From a virus: a stretch of 30,403 bases of DNA. The translations under genes and the position numbers were made by a program. The notes beneath the pieces were generated by a model. The model saw nothing but the letters and a program-made list of their open reading frames with translations, searched no databases and was not told where the DNA came from. Shown here one piece after another: positions 3,803 to 30,403 of this stretch. Numbering within the stretch: position 1 is the stretch's first letter; every line of letters begins with the position of its first letter. The stretch covers positions 1-30,403 of IMG/VR virus record IMGVR_UViG_3300025669_000140, one strand, 5' to 3'.

Positions 3803-3814
3803 TGGTTGACAGTA

Positions 3815-3859
3815 TCCTAGTGCTTTTAAGTATGGCAGTACTAGGGGTAAGCACTAGGA
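3815..3859. repeat. Perfect 9-bp inverted repeat (CCTAGTGC)
   Basis: TCCTAGTGC at 3815-3823 and its exact complement GCACTAGGA at 3851-3859 are separated by 27 bases. GTACTAGG at 3838-3845 repeats the right half with one change. Three related half-sites in 45 bases suit a repressor operator. As RNA the arms would form a stem with a large loop. Confidence 0.6.
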
Positions 3860-3910
3860 CAGTGTTAATTATTAGTTCCCTGCTTTTGGTTTTTGAACTG
3901 GATCGAAGGT

Positions 3911-7411: not shown

Positions 7412-9808
7412 ATGGCGAGTAAAAAATACGTTCCCCTAACTAAAAGCAACTGGAAAGGTAAATACCATAAGAGTTCAAGGTATAATAATAAAAGCGAGTT
7501 CACAAAAGTAGGTGACCTATCTGAGCGTTTAGACATCTTAAAAGCAGCAGTCCGGGGTGGTTGTTATTCTGGAAGGGATGGTGGGCCACGTCAAGATTGG
7601 CATGAACAATGGAAACATGACACAAAGGTTGTAGATATGTGGAGGGCTGCAGACGATCCAGATGACCCAAGACCGAATTTAAAATCTCCATTCGCTTATA
7701 ATGCCTGTGAGACTGCAATGACTGAGCTGTGGGATACAAACCCAATGCCCTCGGTTTATGGTTTGACTAAAAAAGGTGAGAAGTATGAAAAGGTTATAGA
7801 AAACATTATAAAATACCCCCTACTTAAATATTCACAGAATGACATATATATGGATGTGTTTCAAGAGGCTCTTTGGATTGGAAATTCATTTGTACAGGAT
7901 ACTTATAAGAAAGTTGTTCGGAAAGCTGAGTTTAAAAAATTAAAGGGTTTTGACAAAAAAGAATTGAAGAGAATGGAGAAGAACGACATTGCTATTTATG
8001 TTGATAAGGAATATATAGAATATAACGATACGACTAAGATTCACTTGTCACCTTTTGAGTACTATCCTGATAATATGGCGAAATATCAACATGATGTGAA
8101 CAAGGGGTCAGAAGATGGAATTAGGGAATATGAATTGAGTTATGATAAGTTTAGAAGATTGTATGATAATAGGCCAGAGTATAGAAATGTTGACAAGGTC
8201 ACACCAGGTGCATTTATGGAACGAAAAGAAAATACTATATTTCAATTCCCTGATAATTTTAATGGTAGTGATAATGTTCTAATGTGGGAGTGGGAGGACA
8301 GAACCCAGGATATTACAAGACACGTAGCAAATGGCATATGGCTTGGAGATATTCCCTTAGATAATCATAAACAATTAAGTGTTACCCATTTTGGCGCCAT
8401 TAAGATACCACATCAGTTTTATTATATGGGACTGGGGAGAGTTATTGAGGGCTTCAATGCGGAAGATGAAGTTATGAGAAATAAATTACTAGAGGTCTTA
8501 GAGTTGTCAATCACACCTCCAATTATAGCCTCTAATCAGGTAGCAGGGGAATTTAAAGATCAATATGATAGTGCTAAATATTCTCTAGGTGAGATTATAA
8601 GTATTTCAGGAAACCCAAATGAGATTAACTGGATGGTGCCACCGATCTCCAAATTGGCAGAAGTTTTCGGAATGCGGGCGCAGATTAAAGAAGATGCTAT
8701 GAGTGTTTCTTTGATTAATCCCTCAGCATCTAACATGCCAGCGAACGATCAAACAGCCACAGAAACAATTGCATTACAGACTGCAACGATGAAAGGTTTC
8801 GCTAAAACAATGAAGAGTTTTGCTAGGGGATTGAAAACAAGCTATAAGATACAATTTGCAACTCAAAGACAGGAGTATCCGTTACAGATGGAACCTGAGG
8901 CAATTAAAATTAGAGAAGGTGACTCAAAAAATTTACACAAATCAAGATCTTTCTATTCTCAGGATATTGAGATTTTTGATACATCTGGGAAAATAACGGT
9001 TGAAAAAAAACCAGGCAAAAAGTTTCCATTTATTGTCAAAGATGAATATTTAGATATTGATGACGACGATATCCAAATTGTAGTCAATGCGGAATCAATG
9101 CACCCTATGAGCAAGCTTAATAGAACTAGGAAGAGTGAGCAAGCACTTGCACAGCTAATGCCTTTATATATAGAAAATTTAAAAAACCCCGAACTATTAA
9201 AAGATCCAAGAATAGCAGCAATTCATCGTGATTATGTTTTGAGTCATGGATTTGACGAGAGTGATTATTTACAGAGCGAGACAGAAGATGAAGACGAAAT
9301 GGTCGAGAGAGCAATAAAGCAAGAAGCTATTATGTGGAAAAATAGTAAATTAAGGGATGGTGTGAATGATGATAAATATAAAATGGTAATAGGAGAGTAT
9401 GATGAACCAATAGAACATTTAAATCATCATCTGAGAAAGTTAAAAGAATTGAGACAGATGAAAGACGAAAAGATCGCTAAGCTTGAAGAGATAGCGGCAG
9501 AGGTAACACAGATGGCAATGGAAGGTGGGCGAGTTTCACCTGATTTATCAAAAGAGGCAAACCTGTTGAGCGATGAATTAGATATATTATTAGATTTTAT
9601 TGATCAGTTACAAGATCATTATAAAACAGATAGATTAACCAGGGCTGAGGCAGAGCAGGAAGAGTTAGCCCAGCAGACAGGCATGGAAGGTGGACAACAA
9701 TCATTGCAAAGTCCAGCAGGACAGCCAATGGGCCAACCAATGCAAGGTGGTAATATTCCGTCACCTGTAAATATGGGTAATACCGATCTGACGATGGCAA
9801 GTATGTAA
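7412..9808 (+). CDS. Portal protein
   Basis: 798 residues, in the size range of the large portal proteins of short-tailed phages. It follows terminase directly and precedes scaffold and capsid genes. Sequence features fit: a mixed alpha/beta body with FQEALWIGNSFVQDTYKK, an acidic/aromatic stem region, a long helical stretch with coiled-coil character (about 660-750: IEHLNHHLRKLKELRQMKDE), and a glutamine/glycine/proline-rich tail (GQPMGQPMQGG). The portal is the twelve-fold channel through which DNA enters and leaves. It has its own promoter at 7354. The assignment rests on position, length and general character rather than a catalytic motif. Confidence 0.8.
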   Translation: MASKKYVPLTKSNWKGKYHKSSRYNNKSEFTKVGDLSERLDILKAAVRGGCYSGRDGGPRQDWHEQWKHDTKVVDMWRAADDPDDPRPNLKSPFAYNACETAMTELWDTNPMPSVYGLTKKGEKYEKVIENIIKYPLLKYSQNDIYMDVFQEALWIGNSFVQDTYKKVVRKAEFKKLKGFDKKELKRMEKNDIAIYVDKEYIEYNDTTKIHLSPFEYYPDNMAKYQHDVNKGSEDGIREYELSYDKFRRLYDNRPEYRNVDKVTPGAFMERKENTIFQFPDNFNGSDNVLMWEWEDRTQDITRHVANGIWLGDIPLDNHKQLSVTHFGAIKIPHQFYYMGLGRVIEGFNAEDEVMRNKLLEVLELSITPPIIASNQVAGEFKDQYDSAKYSLGEIISISGNPNEINWMVPPISKLAEVFGMRAQIKEDAMSVSLINPSASNMPANDQTATETIALQTATMKGFAKTMKSFARGLKTSYKIQFATQRQEYPLQMEPEAIKIREGDSKNLHKSRSFYSQDIEIFDTSGKITVEKKPGKKFPFIVKDEYLDIDDDDIQIVVNAESMHPMSKLNRTRKSEQALAQLMPLYIENLKNPELLKDPRIAAIHRDYVLSHGFDESDYLQSETEDEDEMVERAIKQEAIMWKNSKLRDGVNDDKYKMVIGEYDEPIEHLNHHLRKLKELRQMKDEKIAKLEEIAAEVTQMAMEGGRVSPDLSKEANLLSDELDILLDFIDQLQDHYKTDRLTRAEAEQEELAQQTGMEGGQQSLQSPAGQPMGQPMQGGNIPSPVNMGNTDLTMASM

Positions 9809-27110: not shown

Positions 27111-27167
27111 CACAAATTCTTGTGAGAGATCAGCAACAATCTTGACAGTATTGGGGGGCTGGTCTCT
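27111..27167 (+). promoter_or_regulatory. Structured 5' leader with two hairpins
   Basis: CACAA/TTGTG (27111-27115/27120-27124) forms a small hairpin at the expected RNA 5' end. Directly after it AGAGATCAGC (27125-27134) pairs with GCTGGTCTCT (27158-27167) over ten positions, one of them U-G, followed by TTTATGTT. The wobble pair suggests that the structure acts in + strand RNA. It could stabilise or attenuate the transcript of the small gene at 27224. Confidence 0.5.
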
Positions 27168-27205
27168 TTATGTTATTACAGGTGTTTGTGCTTGGTGTGG
27201 ATTTA

Positions 27206-27225
27206 ATTTAAGAAAATTCTTAAAT
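27206..27225. repeat. 20-bp palindrome on a start codon
   Basis: ATTTAAGAA-AA-TTCTTAAAT is perfect. Its last two bases are the first two of ATG 27224. It could be an operator or could hide the start codon in an mRNA hairpin. Confidence 0.6.
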
Positions 27226-27379
27226 GAAACAGAAGAAGATAGAAAAATTAGATGATCCAATTGTAATTAGTCAAGAAGACCCCTTCCGTGGAGTTCTGAA
27301 TGCTCTGTTAGATCATAAAGACAAAATCAGCGAAATAATAGATTATATTAATAACAATAAAGATGAAAAGGGATATTGA
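27224..27379 (+). CDS. 51-residue acidic protein, unknown
   Basis: ATG 27224 to TGA 27377-27379. The product starts MKQKKIEKLDDPIVISQEDP and has a helix FRGVLNALLDHKDKISEIID. It has its own promoter and a structured leader. No family is recognised. It could be a small regulator in the early control region. Confidence 0.5.
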   Translation: MKQKKIEKLDDPIVISQEDPFRGVLNALLDHKDKISEIIDYINNNKDEKGY

Positions 27380-27410
27380 CCTGGAAAATCTGGACCATTG
27401 TGTACAAGAT

Positions 27411-27440
27411 GCAGGTATAGCTCAACTGGTAGAGCATGTT
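27411..27440 (+). pseudogene. tRNA 5'-half fragment
   Basis: GCAGGTATAGCTCAACTGGT followed by AGAGCA (27411-27436) is the acceptor 5' strand and a complete D-arm (GCTC...GAGC with AACTGGTA loop) of a bacterial tRNA. Beyond 27437 no matching anticodon stem, T-arm (GGTTCGA) or acceptor 3' strand is found, so it is not a functional tRNA. It may be an attachment-site relic or a captured tRNA piece. A small frame across it would read AGIAQLVEH, the usual false translation of tRNA genes. Confidence 0.6.
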
Positions 27441-27475
27441 CAGAACTAGTTTAATTTATTAGACTTCACTGTTTT

Positions 27476-27504
27476 TTTACATCTTCCAGAAAATAGTGTA
27501 TAAT
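27476..27504 (+). promoter_or_regulatory. Sigma70-type promoter of small RNA/leader
   Basis: TTTACA (27476-27481), a 17-base spacer and TATAAT (27499-27504). One mismatch to the ideal -35 and a perfect -10. Start of transcription is expected near 27511. Confidence 0.8.
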
Positions 27505-27510
27505 GTACAC

Positions 27511-27606
27511 ATGAACAACCTAGACACAACAAAATTTCTAAGAAATTTGATATATGAGATGAGCCTCTTTGCCTTTCCGTCTAGGTTTTGCAAGGTGGCT
27601 CTTTTT
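27511..27606 (+). ncRNA. Candidate small RNA or attenuator leader with pseudoknot potential
   Basis: From the expected transcript start the RNA has AACCTAGAC (27517-27525), a local hairpin AAATTTCT-A-AGAAATTT (27532-27548), then a terminator stem (27561-27601). The 17-base terminator loop contains GTCTAGGTT (27579-27587), the exact complement of the upstream AACCTAGAC. The two can form a 9-bp loop-strand pairing that would either build a pseudoknot or compete with the terminator. The unit ends in TTTTT, giving an RNA of about 96 bases. It also contains a 34-codon frame (27511-27615, MNNLDTTKFLRNL...), which could be a leader peptide or chance. Confidence 0.6.
27561..27606 (+). terminator. Intrinsic terminator with functional-looking loop
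   Basis: GAGCC (27561-27565) pairs with GGCTC (27597-27601). After one T-T mismatch, CTTTGC (27567-27572) pairs with GCAAGG (27590-27595), one pair being U-G. A TTTTT run follows. This makes an 11-pair stem ahead of the gene at 27625. Confidence 0.75.
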
Positions 27607-27624
27607 ATTTATTAATTAATTAAA

Positions 27625-27843
27625 ATGGCAAACAAAAAAAGGTATAGGAAATTTATAATGGGGGTAGATCAGGCATTCGGCTATGGTGTAGCACATGCCA
27701 AGCTTCCCCTTACACCAAGGTGGAAATTGTTTGTTAAAATGGCAAACAAAAACAATAGTGGAGGCAAGAACAGCGGATATGGGATTAGCAGACATTCTAA
27801 TAGTGGAAATTGGAATAGCAGCTCTTTTAAACCATTCATGTGA
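27625..27843 (+). CDS. 72-residue basic protein with Asn/Ser/Gly tail
   Basis: The N-terminal half is MANKKRYRKFIMGVDQAFGY, then GVAHAKLPLTPRWKLFVKM. The second half is low-complexity (NNSGGKNSGYG, NSGNWNSSS). High basic charge could mean nucleic-acid binding. Expression would require readthrough of the terminator 20 bases upstream, so it is probably regulated by that leader. The stop overlaps the GTG start of the next gene. No family is recognised. Confidence 0.5.
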   Translation: MANKKRYRKFIMGVDQAFGYGVAHAKLPLTPRWKLFVKMANKNNSGGKNSGYGISRHSNSGNWNSSSFKPFM

Positions 27844-28064
27844 AAATCACAGAACTAATTAAAACAACAAGAGTTTCCGAGAAGAGAACACAAAAAAAGT
27901 TTGGTGTTGTGTTTGGCGTTGGGGGTGCGGCGGTTTCCTTGTGGGAGGCGGGAAAACGTGAAGCCCCGTATAGGGTTATAGAATATTGCTTACAGGATCA
28001 CAAACAAATTAAGAAAACTTGTCCAACTTGCAATGGTACTGGTAAGATTGTTTTAAACATTTAG
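27840..28064 (+). CDS. HTH protein with C-terminal zinc-knuckle motif
   Basis: 74 residues with a GTG start in the overlap GTGA. Residues 16-50 form a helix-turn-helix: RTQKKFGVVFGVGGAAVSLW, EAGKREAPYRVIEYCL, where the glycine turn and SLWEAGK follow the XRE pattern. At the end CPTCNGTGK (61-69) is a single CxxCxGxG unit like one repeat of the DnaJ zinc domain. It is probably a small DNA-binding regulator of the early region. The ATCGAT-type repeats just downstream are candidate binding sites. The CxxC pair might join another subunit to bind zinc. Confidence 0.65.
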   Translation: MKITELIKTTRVSEKRTQKKFGVVFGVGGAAVSLWEAGKREAPYRVIEYCLQDHKQIKKTCPTCNGTGKIVLNI

Positions 28065-28189
28065 TTAATATAATATTATTATAAAGCAATCGATTATAAA
28101 AAATTTCTTAAATAATAAATGTGGGGCAATTAGGTCTTTCTAATCGATTCGCCTAGTTGTCCTATATTTGTTATTTTAAGCAATTGATT
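28065..28189. promoter_or_regulatory. Replication-gene upstream region with repeats and RNA hairpin
   Basis: AATCGATT occurs at 28088-28095 and 28142-28149, and the variant AATTGATT at 28182-28189, next to ATG. AAGCAATCGATTAT (28085-28098) and AAGCAATTGATTAT (28178-28191) match at 13 of 14 positions. Between them GGGGCAATTAGG (28123-28134) pairs with CCTAGTTGTCCT (28152-28163) over 12 positions with three G-U pairs, so it folds better as + strand RNA. These are candidate operators or origin repeats for the HTH protein or replication protein. Confidence 0.5.
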
Positions 28190-29047
28190 ATGAAACAAAC
28201 AGCAATCTATAAAGAATTATGGAGGGATAGAGATTTTGTTTCTTTATCTCCTAATGAGCGTGAATTATTTTTATATTGTCTTACTTGTCCCAATTTATCT
28301 ATTATTCCAGCTTTTTTGCTTACAGATCGTGAAATATGTTTTGACACCTCACTTAAACCAGAAGATTTGCCTCAATTAAAACAGAAATTATCTAGCATGG
28401 ATATATATTTTATTGATGATTTTTGTATTGTAAAGAATAAATTTAAACCATTTACCTTTAAAGGTGATCGGTTAAAAAAAGCAAAGGATAATTTAATTTC
28501 TAAAATTCCTGAAAAAGTACTCCAGATAATGGAATCTAATAAAGTATCAATAGAGTATCAATATTCTATTGATACATCTAATAATAGTAATAGTAATAGT
28601 AATAGTAATAGTAATAATAGTAATAATAGTAAAAAAGAAGAAAAATATTTAAAAAAAGAAATTATTAAAAACTTTAAAGAGTTTTGGGAAATATATCCTA
28701 AAAAAATTGGCAAGAAAAAAGTAGAGGATATTTATTTCAATCTTCTTGAAAATGATAAAACAAATCAACTACACAAAAAGATTATCAGTGGTTTAAAAAA
28801 ACAGATTGAATATCGAGATAGTGTACGTGATGATACTACAGTTTTTATTCCTGAGTGGAAACATCCTGCTACGTGGCTCAATCAAGGGTGTTGGGAGGAT
28901 GAAATGCAGATGGAAAGGCAAAAGTTCAATATTAACCAGGTTCCTGAACAACACCAGGAGGAATTTAATTTTATTCTTTCTCATGAAGGTGAAAATTCTG
29001 CGAGAAAATTTCTAAAAAAACTAGGGTTAAACTATTCTAATTTTTAA
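28190..29047 (+). CDS. Replication initiation protein (O/DnaD-like)
   Basis: About 285 residues from ATG 28190. An upstream TTG at 28157 is less likely because the hairpin covers it. The N-terminal domain (1-128) has IYKELWRDRDFVSLSPNERE, LFLYCLTCPNL, a winged-helix-like region of phage replication initiators. Residues about 130-147 are an Asn-Ser linker. The C-terminal domain holds FKEFWEIYPKKIGKKKVEDI and FIPEWKHPATWLNQGCWED, the pair of motifs seen at the end of many phage O-type and DnaD-related replication proteins. It would bind the origin and recruit a helicase loader. No separate helicase gene lies in the window. Confidence 0.75.
   Translation: MKQTAIYKELWRDRDFVSLSPNERELFLYCLTCPNLSIIPAFLLTDREICFDTSLKPEDLPQLKQKLSSMDIYFIDDFCIVKNKFKPFTFKGDRLKKAKDNLISKIPEKVLQIMESNKVSIEYQYSIDTSNNSNSNSNSNSNNSNNSKKEEKYLKKEIIKNFKEFWEIYPKKIGKKKVEDIYFNLLENDKTNQLHKKIISGLKKQIEYRDSVRDDTTVFIPEWKHPATWLNQGCWEDEMQMERQKFNINQVPEQHQEEFNFILSHEGENSARKFLKKLGLNYSNF
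28583..28630 (+). repeat. AATAGT microsatellite in replication gene
   Basis: Five tandem AATAGT units (28583-28612) followed by two AATAATAGT units (28613-28630). They encode the Asn-Ser linker. Gain or loss of any unit keeps the frame and only alters linker length. Confidence 0.85.
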
Positions 29048-30100: not shown

Positions 30101-30129
30101 TTGACAAACATATTAATGATTGTTATAAT
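30101..30129 (+). promoter_or_regulatory. Consensus promoter with extended -10
   Basis: TTGACA (30101-30106), a 17-base spacer ending TGT, then TATAAT (30124-30129). It is a full match to the sigma70 consensus with the extended -10 TGn. It is the strongest promoter in the window and drives the gene at 30158. Confidence 0.9.
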
Positions 30130-30157: not shown

Positions 30158-30403
30158 ATGAGAAAACAAATACAAAAATCTAAATTCTATAACAAAGAGT
30201 ATGACAATTACGATGCAAGGAGTGACGAAGCACTAGAAGAATTGAGGTCATTAGGGTTAGAAATTGGCGGAAAAGGAAAAGCAATTGAGATAGAAGCACT
30301 AATAGGCTTCTATCAGGACGATTCAGGATACGGAGGTAATCTTGATTACGCTAAGTCATATTCTGGATATAGAGCTGATTTATTGCAGATTACAATAAAA
30401 GAA
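30158..30403 (+). CDS. Unknown protein, cut by right edge
   Basis: 82 codons are present with no stop before the edge. It begins MRKQIQKSKFYNKEYDNYDA and continues LEELRSLGLEIGGKGKAIEI and FYQDDSGYGGNLDYAKSYSG. It is rich in tyrosine, aspartate and glycine. No family is recognised. A perfect promoter 29 bases upstream and no Shine-Dalgarno suggest an early gene with a short leader. Confidence 0.6.
   Translation, partial: MRKQIQKSKFYNKEYDNYDARSDEALEELRSLGLEIGGKGKAIEIEALIGFYQDDSGYGGNLDYAKSYSGYRADLLQITIKE

Follow-up and report, generated by a model that had tools for sequence, protein, structure and literature searches.

What is the role of the intergenic stretch at 27476-27624 of this phage record, where a strong promoter is followed by a strand complementary to the loop of the next terminator-like hairpin? 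The original prediction offered two answers, a small phage RNA of about 96 nt with a pseudoknot or an attenuator in which loop-strand pairing controls readthrough into the gene pair at 27625-28064. We analyzed the locus within the window, by which we mean the whole stretch of the IMG/VR record under study (30,403 bases, 36% G+C), and the sequence features claimed for 27476-27624 are all present where they had been placed. They are listed here together with their gene context; the promoter-proximal unit is referred to as element 1.

About 4.6-25 kb: structural gene block
25,397: M23 endolysin-like peptidase
27476..27504, + strand: sigma70-type promoter TTTACA-17-TATAAT, 11/12 (P27476); predicted start site about 27511
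27517..27525, + strand: upstream strand of element 1 (SA5'), AACCTAGAC, at about +7 of the transcript
27532..27548, + strand: local hairpin AAATTTC/GAAATTT of element 1, 7 pairs with a 3-nt loop, in the spacer that joins SA5' to SB
27561..27601, + strand: terminator stem of element 1 (SB), arms 27561-27572 / 27590-27601, 17-nt loop
27573..27578, + strand: pyrimidine linker CTTTCC of element 1, on the 5' side of the loop
27579..27587, + strand: loop strand of element 1 (SA3'), GTCTAGGTT, perfect complement of 27517-27525
27602..27606, + strand: U tract of the element 1 terminator, TTTTT
From 27.6 kb: replication region
27625..27843, + strand: gene for a 72-aa protein with no family match, 18 nt past the U tract of element 1
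27840..28064, + strand: gene for a 74-aa HTH protein with a CxxC zinc-ribbon-like tail; homologue in a relative phage (L130 943-1209)

A leader strand complementary to a terminator loop

P27476 (TTTACA at 27476-27481, a spacer of 17, and TATAAT at 27499-27504) ranks second among the sigma70-like matches on the window's + strand, behind a 12/12 site at 30101, and no promoter above 8/12 is found between the terminator and the ATG at 27625. At the sequence level this is the layout of an attenuator, with P27476, the terminator at 27561-27606, the ATG at 27625, and intervening promoters of at most 8/12. Because of their position and orientation and the lack of a second good promoter, the genes at 27625-28064, and probably the replication genes too, would be read from P27476; the 72-aa gene (27625..27843), whose product is without a Pfam or PHROGs match, is presumably expressed via read-through of element 1. 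The better-scoring site, at 30101-30129, matches the consensus perfectly (TTGACA-17-TATAAT) and is the window's best promoter. A short AT-rich leader separates it from the gene at 30158; a loop-strand element was not found in that leader.

The 11 pairs of the SB stem include one G.U, and a single T.T mismatch interrupts them. The stem was missed by a simple terminator scan because that scan was restricted to loops of 3-8 nt. Its loop reads CTTTCC, then GTCTAGGTT, then TT. The copy of AACCTAGAC at 27517-27525 is the only complement of GTCTAGGTT (27579-27587) in the window, and AACCTAG occurs in the whole window once per strand, at these same two strands. The 9-bp helix that they can form (SA, 27517-27525/27579-27587) has a predicted duplex energy of -11.9 kcal/mol. 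Folded without a pseudoknot, 27511-27606 has a minimum free energy (MFE) structure (-23.0 kcal/mol, z -2.4) whose helices are the terminator stem and the small hairpin, to which SA, which crosses the terminator stem topologically, could be added as a pseudoknot. Searches with Rfam 15 returned 0 matches in the whole window at the gathering threshold, and at E <= 5 only sub-threshold matches at chance level.

Trp-type and riboswitch attenuators are arranged as promoter, short leader, intrinsic terminator, and gene, and element 1 shares this order. It differs from them in that no comparably stable exclusive antiterminator is present and pairing of the upstream strand is limited to the loop. Since the pairing strand sits in the loop, SA and the terminator stem can coexist rather than compete, and a nested fold in which SA replaces the terminator stem is 6.8 kcal/mol worse (-16.2 versus -23.0 kcal/mol). 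We therefore rejected a classical attenuator with mutually exclusive folds, for which the antiterminator fold is lacking and the energies are unfavorable, and with it the proposal that loop-strand pairing excludes the terminator. The idea of readthrough control over 27625-28064 is retained in part: a role in cis is favored, with no intervening promoter above 8/12, but the mutually exclusive folds are not. In silico, SA leaves the accessibility of the 27625 AUG unaltered.

A 34-codon frame had also been proposed to couple translation to folding. The predicted start at 27511 is the A of the ATG of this frame, which would therefore be leaderless, and its codon score of 0.003 bits leaves coding unsupported, lying under nearly all genes of the phage (5th percentile, 0.06) and inside the out-of-frame range (95th percentile, 0.08). 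The same score makes leader-peptide attenuation through this frame less likely.

A second site before the replication-initiation gene

We scanned for hairpins whose stem had a net score of 9 or more and whose loop, at most 24 nt long, contained the exact complement of a strand at most 90 nt upstream. The + strand of the window contains exactly two such sites, each with a 9-nt complement, at 27517-27601 and 28088-28176. Both are intergenic and they lie 0.6 kb apart; they differ in the sequence of their pairing strands and agree in the linker and in 9-mer placement. The second site, element 2, precedes the gene for a replication-initiation protein (Rep).

28088..28096, + strand: upstream strand of element 2, AATCGATTA
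28110..28176, + strand: stem of element 2, 26 pairs with many G.U, arms 28110-28135 / 28151-28176, 15-nt loop
28136..28140, + strand: pyrimidine linker CTTTC of element 2, on the 5' side of the loop
28141..28149, + strand: loop strand of element 2, TAATCGATT, perfect complement of 28088-28096
28190..29047, + strand: replication-initiation gene (Rep), ATG at 28190, 13 nt past element 2

The loop of element 2 reads CTTTC, TAATCGATT, and C, and a gap of 13 nt separates the upstream strand from the stem. All 26 pairs of the stem form without a mismatch, but it is unbroken only through its G.U pairs, which points to an RNA read from the + strand. Element 2 is without a canonical terminator, its promoter is weak (9/12), and its SA duplex is predicted at -7.4 kcal/mol; by prediction, a 9-bp SA together with a 26-pair SB is possible directly before Rep. 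The Rep product matches replication-initiation families and not ssDNA-binding protein, and the mechanical start of its open reading frame is a TTG at 28157, within the element 2 stem. In the MFE fold, 28094-28099 closes over the Rep start codon, with a pairing probability of the AUG of 0.96-0.98; blocking 28088-28096, as the loop pairing would, lowers this value to 0.15-0.39. In silico, then, the pseudoknot state would expose the Rep start.

The same region contains a near-identical direct repeat (AAGCAATCGATTAT / AAGCAATTGATTAT) at 28084-28098 and 28178-28192, on either side of the 26-pair stem, and the second copy (28178-28192) runs into the Rep ATG. This repeat could serve as iterons as well as an RNA switch. 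More generally, the repeated sequences might act as DNA, as an operator or iteron for the adjoining HTH or Rep protein, the candidate sites being the AACCTAGAC inverted repeat and the AAGCAATCGATTAT / AAGCAATTGATTAT direct repeat with AATCGATT between. The HTH gene and the replication-initiation gene do adjoin, and AATCGATT is confined to the element 2 region, where it accounts for both of its occurrences in the window. However, the two site pairs are unrelated in sequence, one copy always occupies the same position within a long hairpin's loop, and the element 2 stem uses G.U pairs, which would be mismatches in a DNA hairpin, so that we regard an explanation through DNA sites as improbable. 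A DNA operator built on CTAG words was tried separately and rejected, CTAG words not being enriched.

Chance is the other explanation that these sites invite. The statistic used for shuffled sequence was a hairpin loop with an exact complement of at least 9 nt to an upstream strand, and dinucleotide-shuffled windows gave 7 matches in 150, or 0.047 (~0.05) per window strand; AT-matched real phage DNA, with any linker allowed, gave 3 matches in 664 kb, about 0.14 per window (both strands). One such match could be luck, and two adjacent intergenic matches in the sense orientation with a common linker could be so less easily.

A third case in a distant relative

Neither searches of bacterial genomes nor a similarity search against phage and plasmid DNA gave a match. 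Protein scans with five queries (the 26782 gene, the 27840 gene, the portal, the capsid protein, and the neighbor of the capsid protein) recovered one contig of the same phage with 99.98% identity and two distant relatives, L127 and L128, as well as one short match of 46% (L004) to the zinc-ribbon part. The near-identical contig is the only other one to carry elements 1 and 2, and its identity makes it uninformative on conservation and covariation. The search with the capsid protein identified L127 (54%, 12.6 kb) and L128 (58%, 43.1 kb record), and the latter contains a further element of the same plan.

L128 8351-8413, sense: element 3, between two genes, 52 nt before the ATG of a putative scaffold gene at 8466

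The promoter of element 3 (TTGACT-18-TATACA, 9/12) has a predicted start at about 8346, about 5 nt before the upstream strand AACCCTGC at L128 8351, which is followed by a small GAAT/ATTC hairpin. The stem is formed by ACTAGGCAGGG and CCCTGTTTAGT, and the loop reads TTTCCTT and then GCAGGGTT; with G.U pairs allowed, the loop pairing extends over 10 bp, with a predicted duplex energy of -14.9 kcal/mol. As in element 2, there is no canonical terminator. The 8-mer GCAGGGTT also occurs in the 5' stem arm, which makes the pairing of element 3 ambiguous because AACCCTGC has two partners, and element 3 is a weaker case than elements 1 and 2. Its position is not homologous to theirs, and no element was found at the corresponding genes of the window and L127. 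Likewise, the homologue of the HTH/zinc-ribbon gene at L130 943-1209 (32% to 27840-28064) has no element in front, and five more distant phages, reached through weak matches to the L128 capsid protein, contained no convincing member. All three elements are in the sense orientation and end 14-52 nt upstream of a gene. The original prediction of a pseudoknot-capable RNA is borne out to the extent that the plan recurs with a different sequence at 28088-28176 and in this relative.

Two unrelated features of the relatives were observed along the way. On the minus strand at L129 8004-10223, the terminase gene of a relative seems to contain an intein-like insert (CLKGDTIIKTTRG ... NNTLVSNC), and L130 1328-2026 encodes a protein with a long tandem run of GIEAGWGIEAG-type repeats.

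With a TTTC linker and a complement of at least 8 nt, 3 matches were found in 86 kb of the three-phage group versus no match across 1.27 Mb of DNA from other phages, and at 6 nt or more the counts were 3 and 3; the linker rule was drawn after both window sites had been seen, and these counts are partly post hoc, the third match alone being independent. A pattern search of IMG/VR (CCTAGACN{25,55}GTCTAGG) proved unspecific, with matches by chance, and was retained solely as control DNA.

These counts bear on the view that element 1 is an ordinary leader or early terminator with a coincidental 9-mer and that 28110-28176 is an unrelated hairpin near a repeated palindrome. Several observations fit it: the shuffle rate of 0.05 per window strand and the 0.14 per window in AT-rich real phage DNA; the many features inspected for the original prediction, which make a single match unsurprising; and the AATCGATT match of element 2, which is a palindrome and belongs to the direct repeat. 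It accounts poorly for a pair of intergenic matches that share a strand, are separated by 0.6 kb, and each combine a CTTTC linker with a 9-mer 5-6 nt into the loop, for a third case in the closest informative relative, and for the lack of any in control DNA at the same settings, and we consider coincidence a rather unlikely explanation.

The third case also bears on the proposal of a stand-alone small RNA of about 96 nt, made from a dedicated promoter and terminator, that would act in trans via an exposed 5' segment or loop. Such an RNA would suit the strong promoter, the compact unit, the U-tract terminator, and a codon score that gives no hint of translation. Elements 2 and 3, however, are built on the common plan but lack a canonical terminator, and their placement immediately ahead of genes points to a function in cis; the gene at 27625, moreover, lacks a good separate promoter. 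AACCTAG / CTAGGTT is found nowhere else in the window, leaving no evident phage target, and there is no Rfam match. An independent small RNA appears rather unlikely to us.

A possible mechanism and its known counterparts

We favor a reading in which the elements are a small set of cis-acting leader pseudoknots, with element 1 attenuating the downstream operon and element 2 perhaps switching Rep translation, and we put its probability at slightly under one half. From the features described above, we infer the folding in the cell, the termination, the direction of regulation, and its trigger as follows. Element 1 would be the 5' leader of the P27476 transcript and probably a pseudoknot, in which the 9 bp of SA form between the upstream strand, at about +7, and the loop closed by the terminator stem (SB), with SA spanned by a pyrimidine linker of 5-6 nt, CTTTCC in element 1. 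The terminator would pass part of the transcripts into 27625-28064 and the replication genes. Stacked on SB, SA may brace a terminator hairpin whose 17-nt loop is otherwise unfavorably large; if SA does so, occupancy of nt 7-15 by a ribosome, a protein, or an antisense RNA would weaken termination. Bracing would mean more termination when SA is formed; alternatively, SA may slow the folding of the hairpin, and our confidence in the direction is low. In element 2, formation of SA would engage the segment that in its absence closes over the Rep start and so would expose the AUG.

AA stands at the start of all three upstream strands, and the UUUC in the linkers runs parallel to these strands, an arrangement that suggests, as a model, U.A-U major-groove triples. 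A bolder proposal is that the elements represent an undescribed class of phage leader RNA, defined by pairing of a 5'-proximal strand with a long hairpin's loop across a UUUC linker and possibly by U.A-U triples with the initial AA of the upstream strands, in which one scaffold is reused with different sequences in several transcripts as a terminator switch or a start-codon switch. We hold this tentatively and consider it doubtful overall.

Few cases of phage leader pseudoknots are known. The gene 32 operator pseudoknot of T4 and RB69 is about 28 nt long, has UUAAA repeats after it, and binds gp32 (PMC535899). It occupies a phage mRNA leader 5' of a gene for a DNA-replication protein, and its structure is kept while the sequence diverges between phages (PMC535899); the putative pseudoknots described here would resemble it in kind. 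In contrast to gene 32, the predicted helices here measure 9 and 11-26 bp, SA5' is separated from the stem by 13-35 nt, a terminator is part of one copy, no UUAAA repeat series precedes the Rep ATG, and the Rep product is not an ssDNA-binding protein.

The HK022 put RNA is about 70 nt long and lies just downstream of a phage promoter, and putL forms two stem-loops with a short triplex (PMC9378689). Element 1 is likewise a predicted structured leader of similar size just past a phage promoter, but put, which has no terminator, makes RNA polymerase resistant to distant ones, whereas element 1 itself has an intrinsic-terminator-like stem and U tract; a 9-bp helix from loop to upstream strand is not seen in the descriptions of put consulted (PMC9378689). 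In type III toxin-antitoxin systems, tandem 36-nt ToxI repeats precede the gene for the ToxN endoribonuclease, and a pseudoknot RNA is followed, as is proposed for element 1, by a terminator that attenuates the downstream gene (PMC5772629). Here, in contrast, there is a single unit, followed by a 72-aa protein without a family match.

If the favored reading is true, a scaffold of constant geometry with variable pairing strands, present at more than one site in a single phage, would be a compact model for the control of termination and translation by loop-strand pairing, and uncultured phages could be searched for similar leaders with it as a template.

Several features of the window stand apart from the three elements. 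Just before P27476, GCAGGTATAGCTCAACTGGTAGAGCATGTTC at 27411-27448 is similar to a tRNA 5' half, with its acceptor and D arm; ARAGORN called no tRNA at 27411-27448, and a tRNA remnant or an attachment-site relic is possible. Two small overlapping frames of 51 and 28 codons (27224-27379 and 27363-27449) also precede the promoter, and the latter reads GIAQLVEH, the peptide that a tRNA D arm would encode. Two hairpins considered as further copies, at 27124-27168 and 3809-3865, have no upstream complement to their loops at the scan settings. The first (GAGAGATCAGC...GCTGGTCTCTT), with a T-rich tail and an inner CAAT/ATTG stem in its loop, follows the late genes and probably marks the end of the late operon. 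The second (CCTAGTGCTT...AAGCACTAGG) has few long open reading frames around it; the sequence of its 3' arm recurs in the loop (AGTACTAGGGG), so that two partners compete for pairing with the 5' arm.
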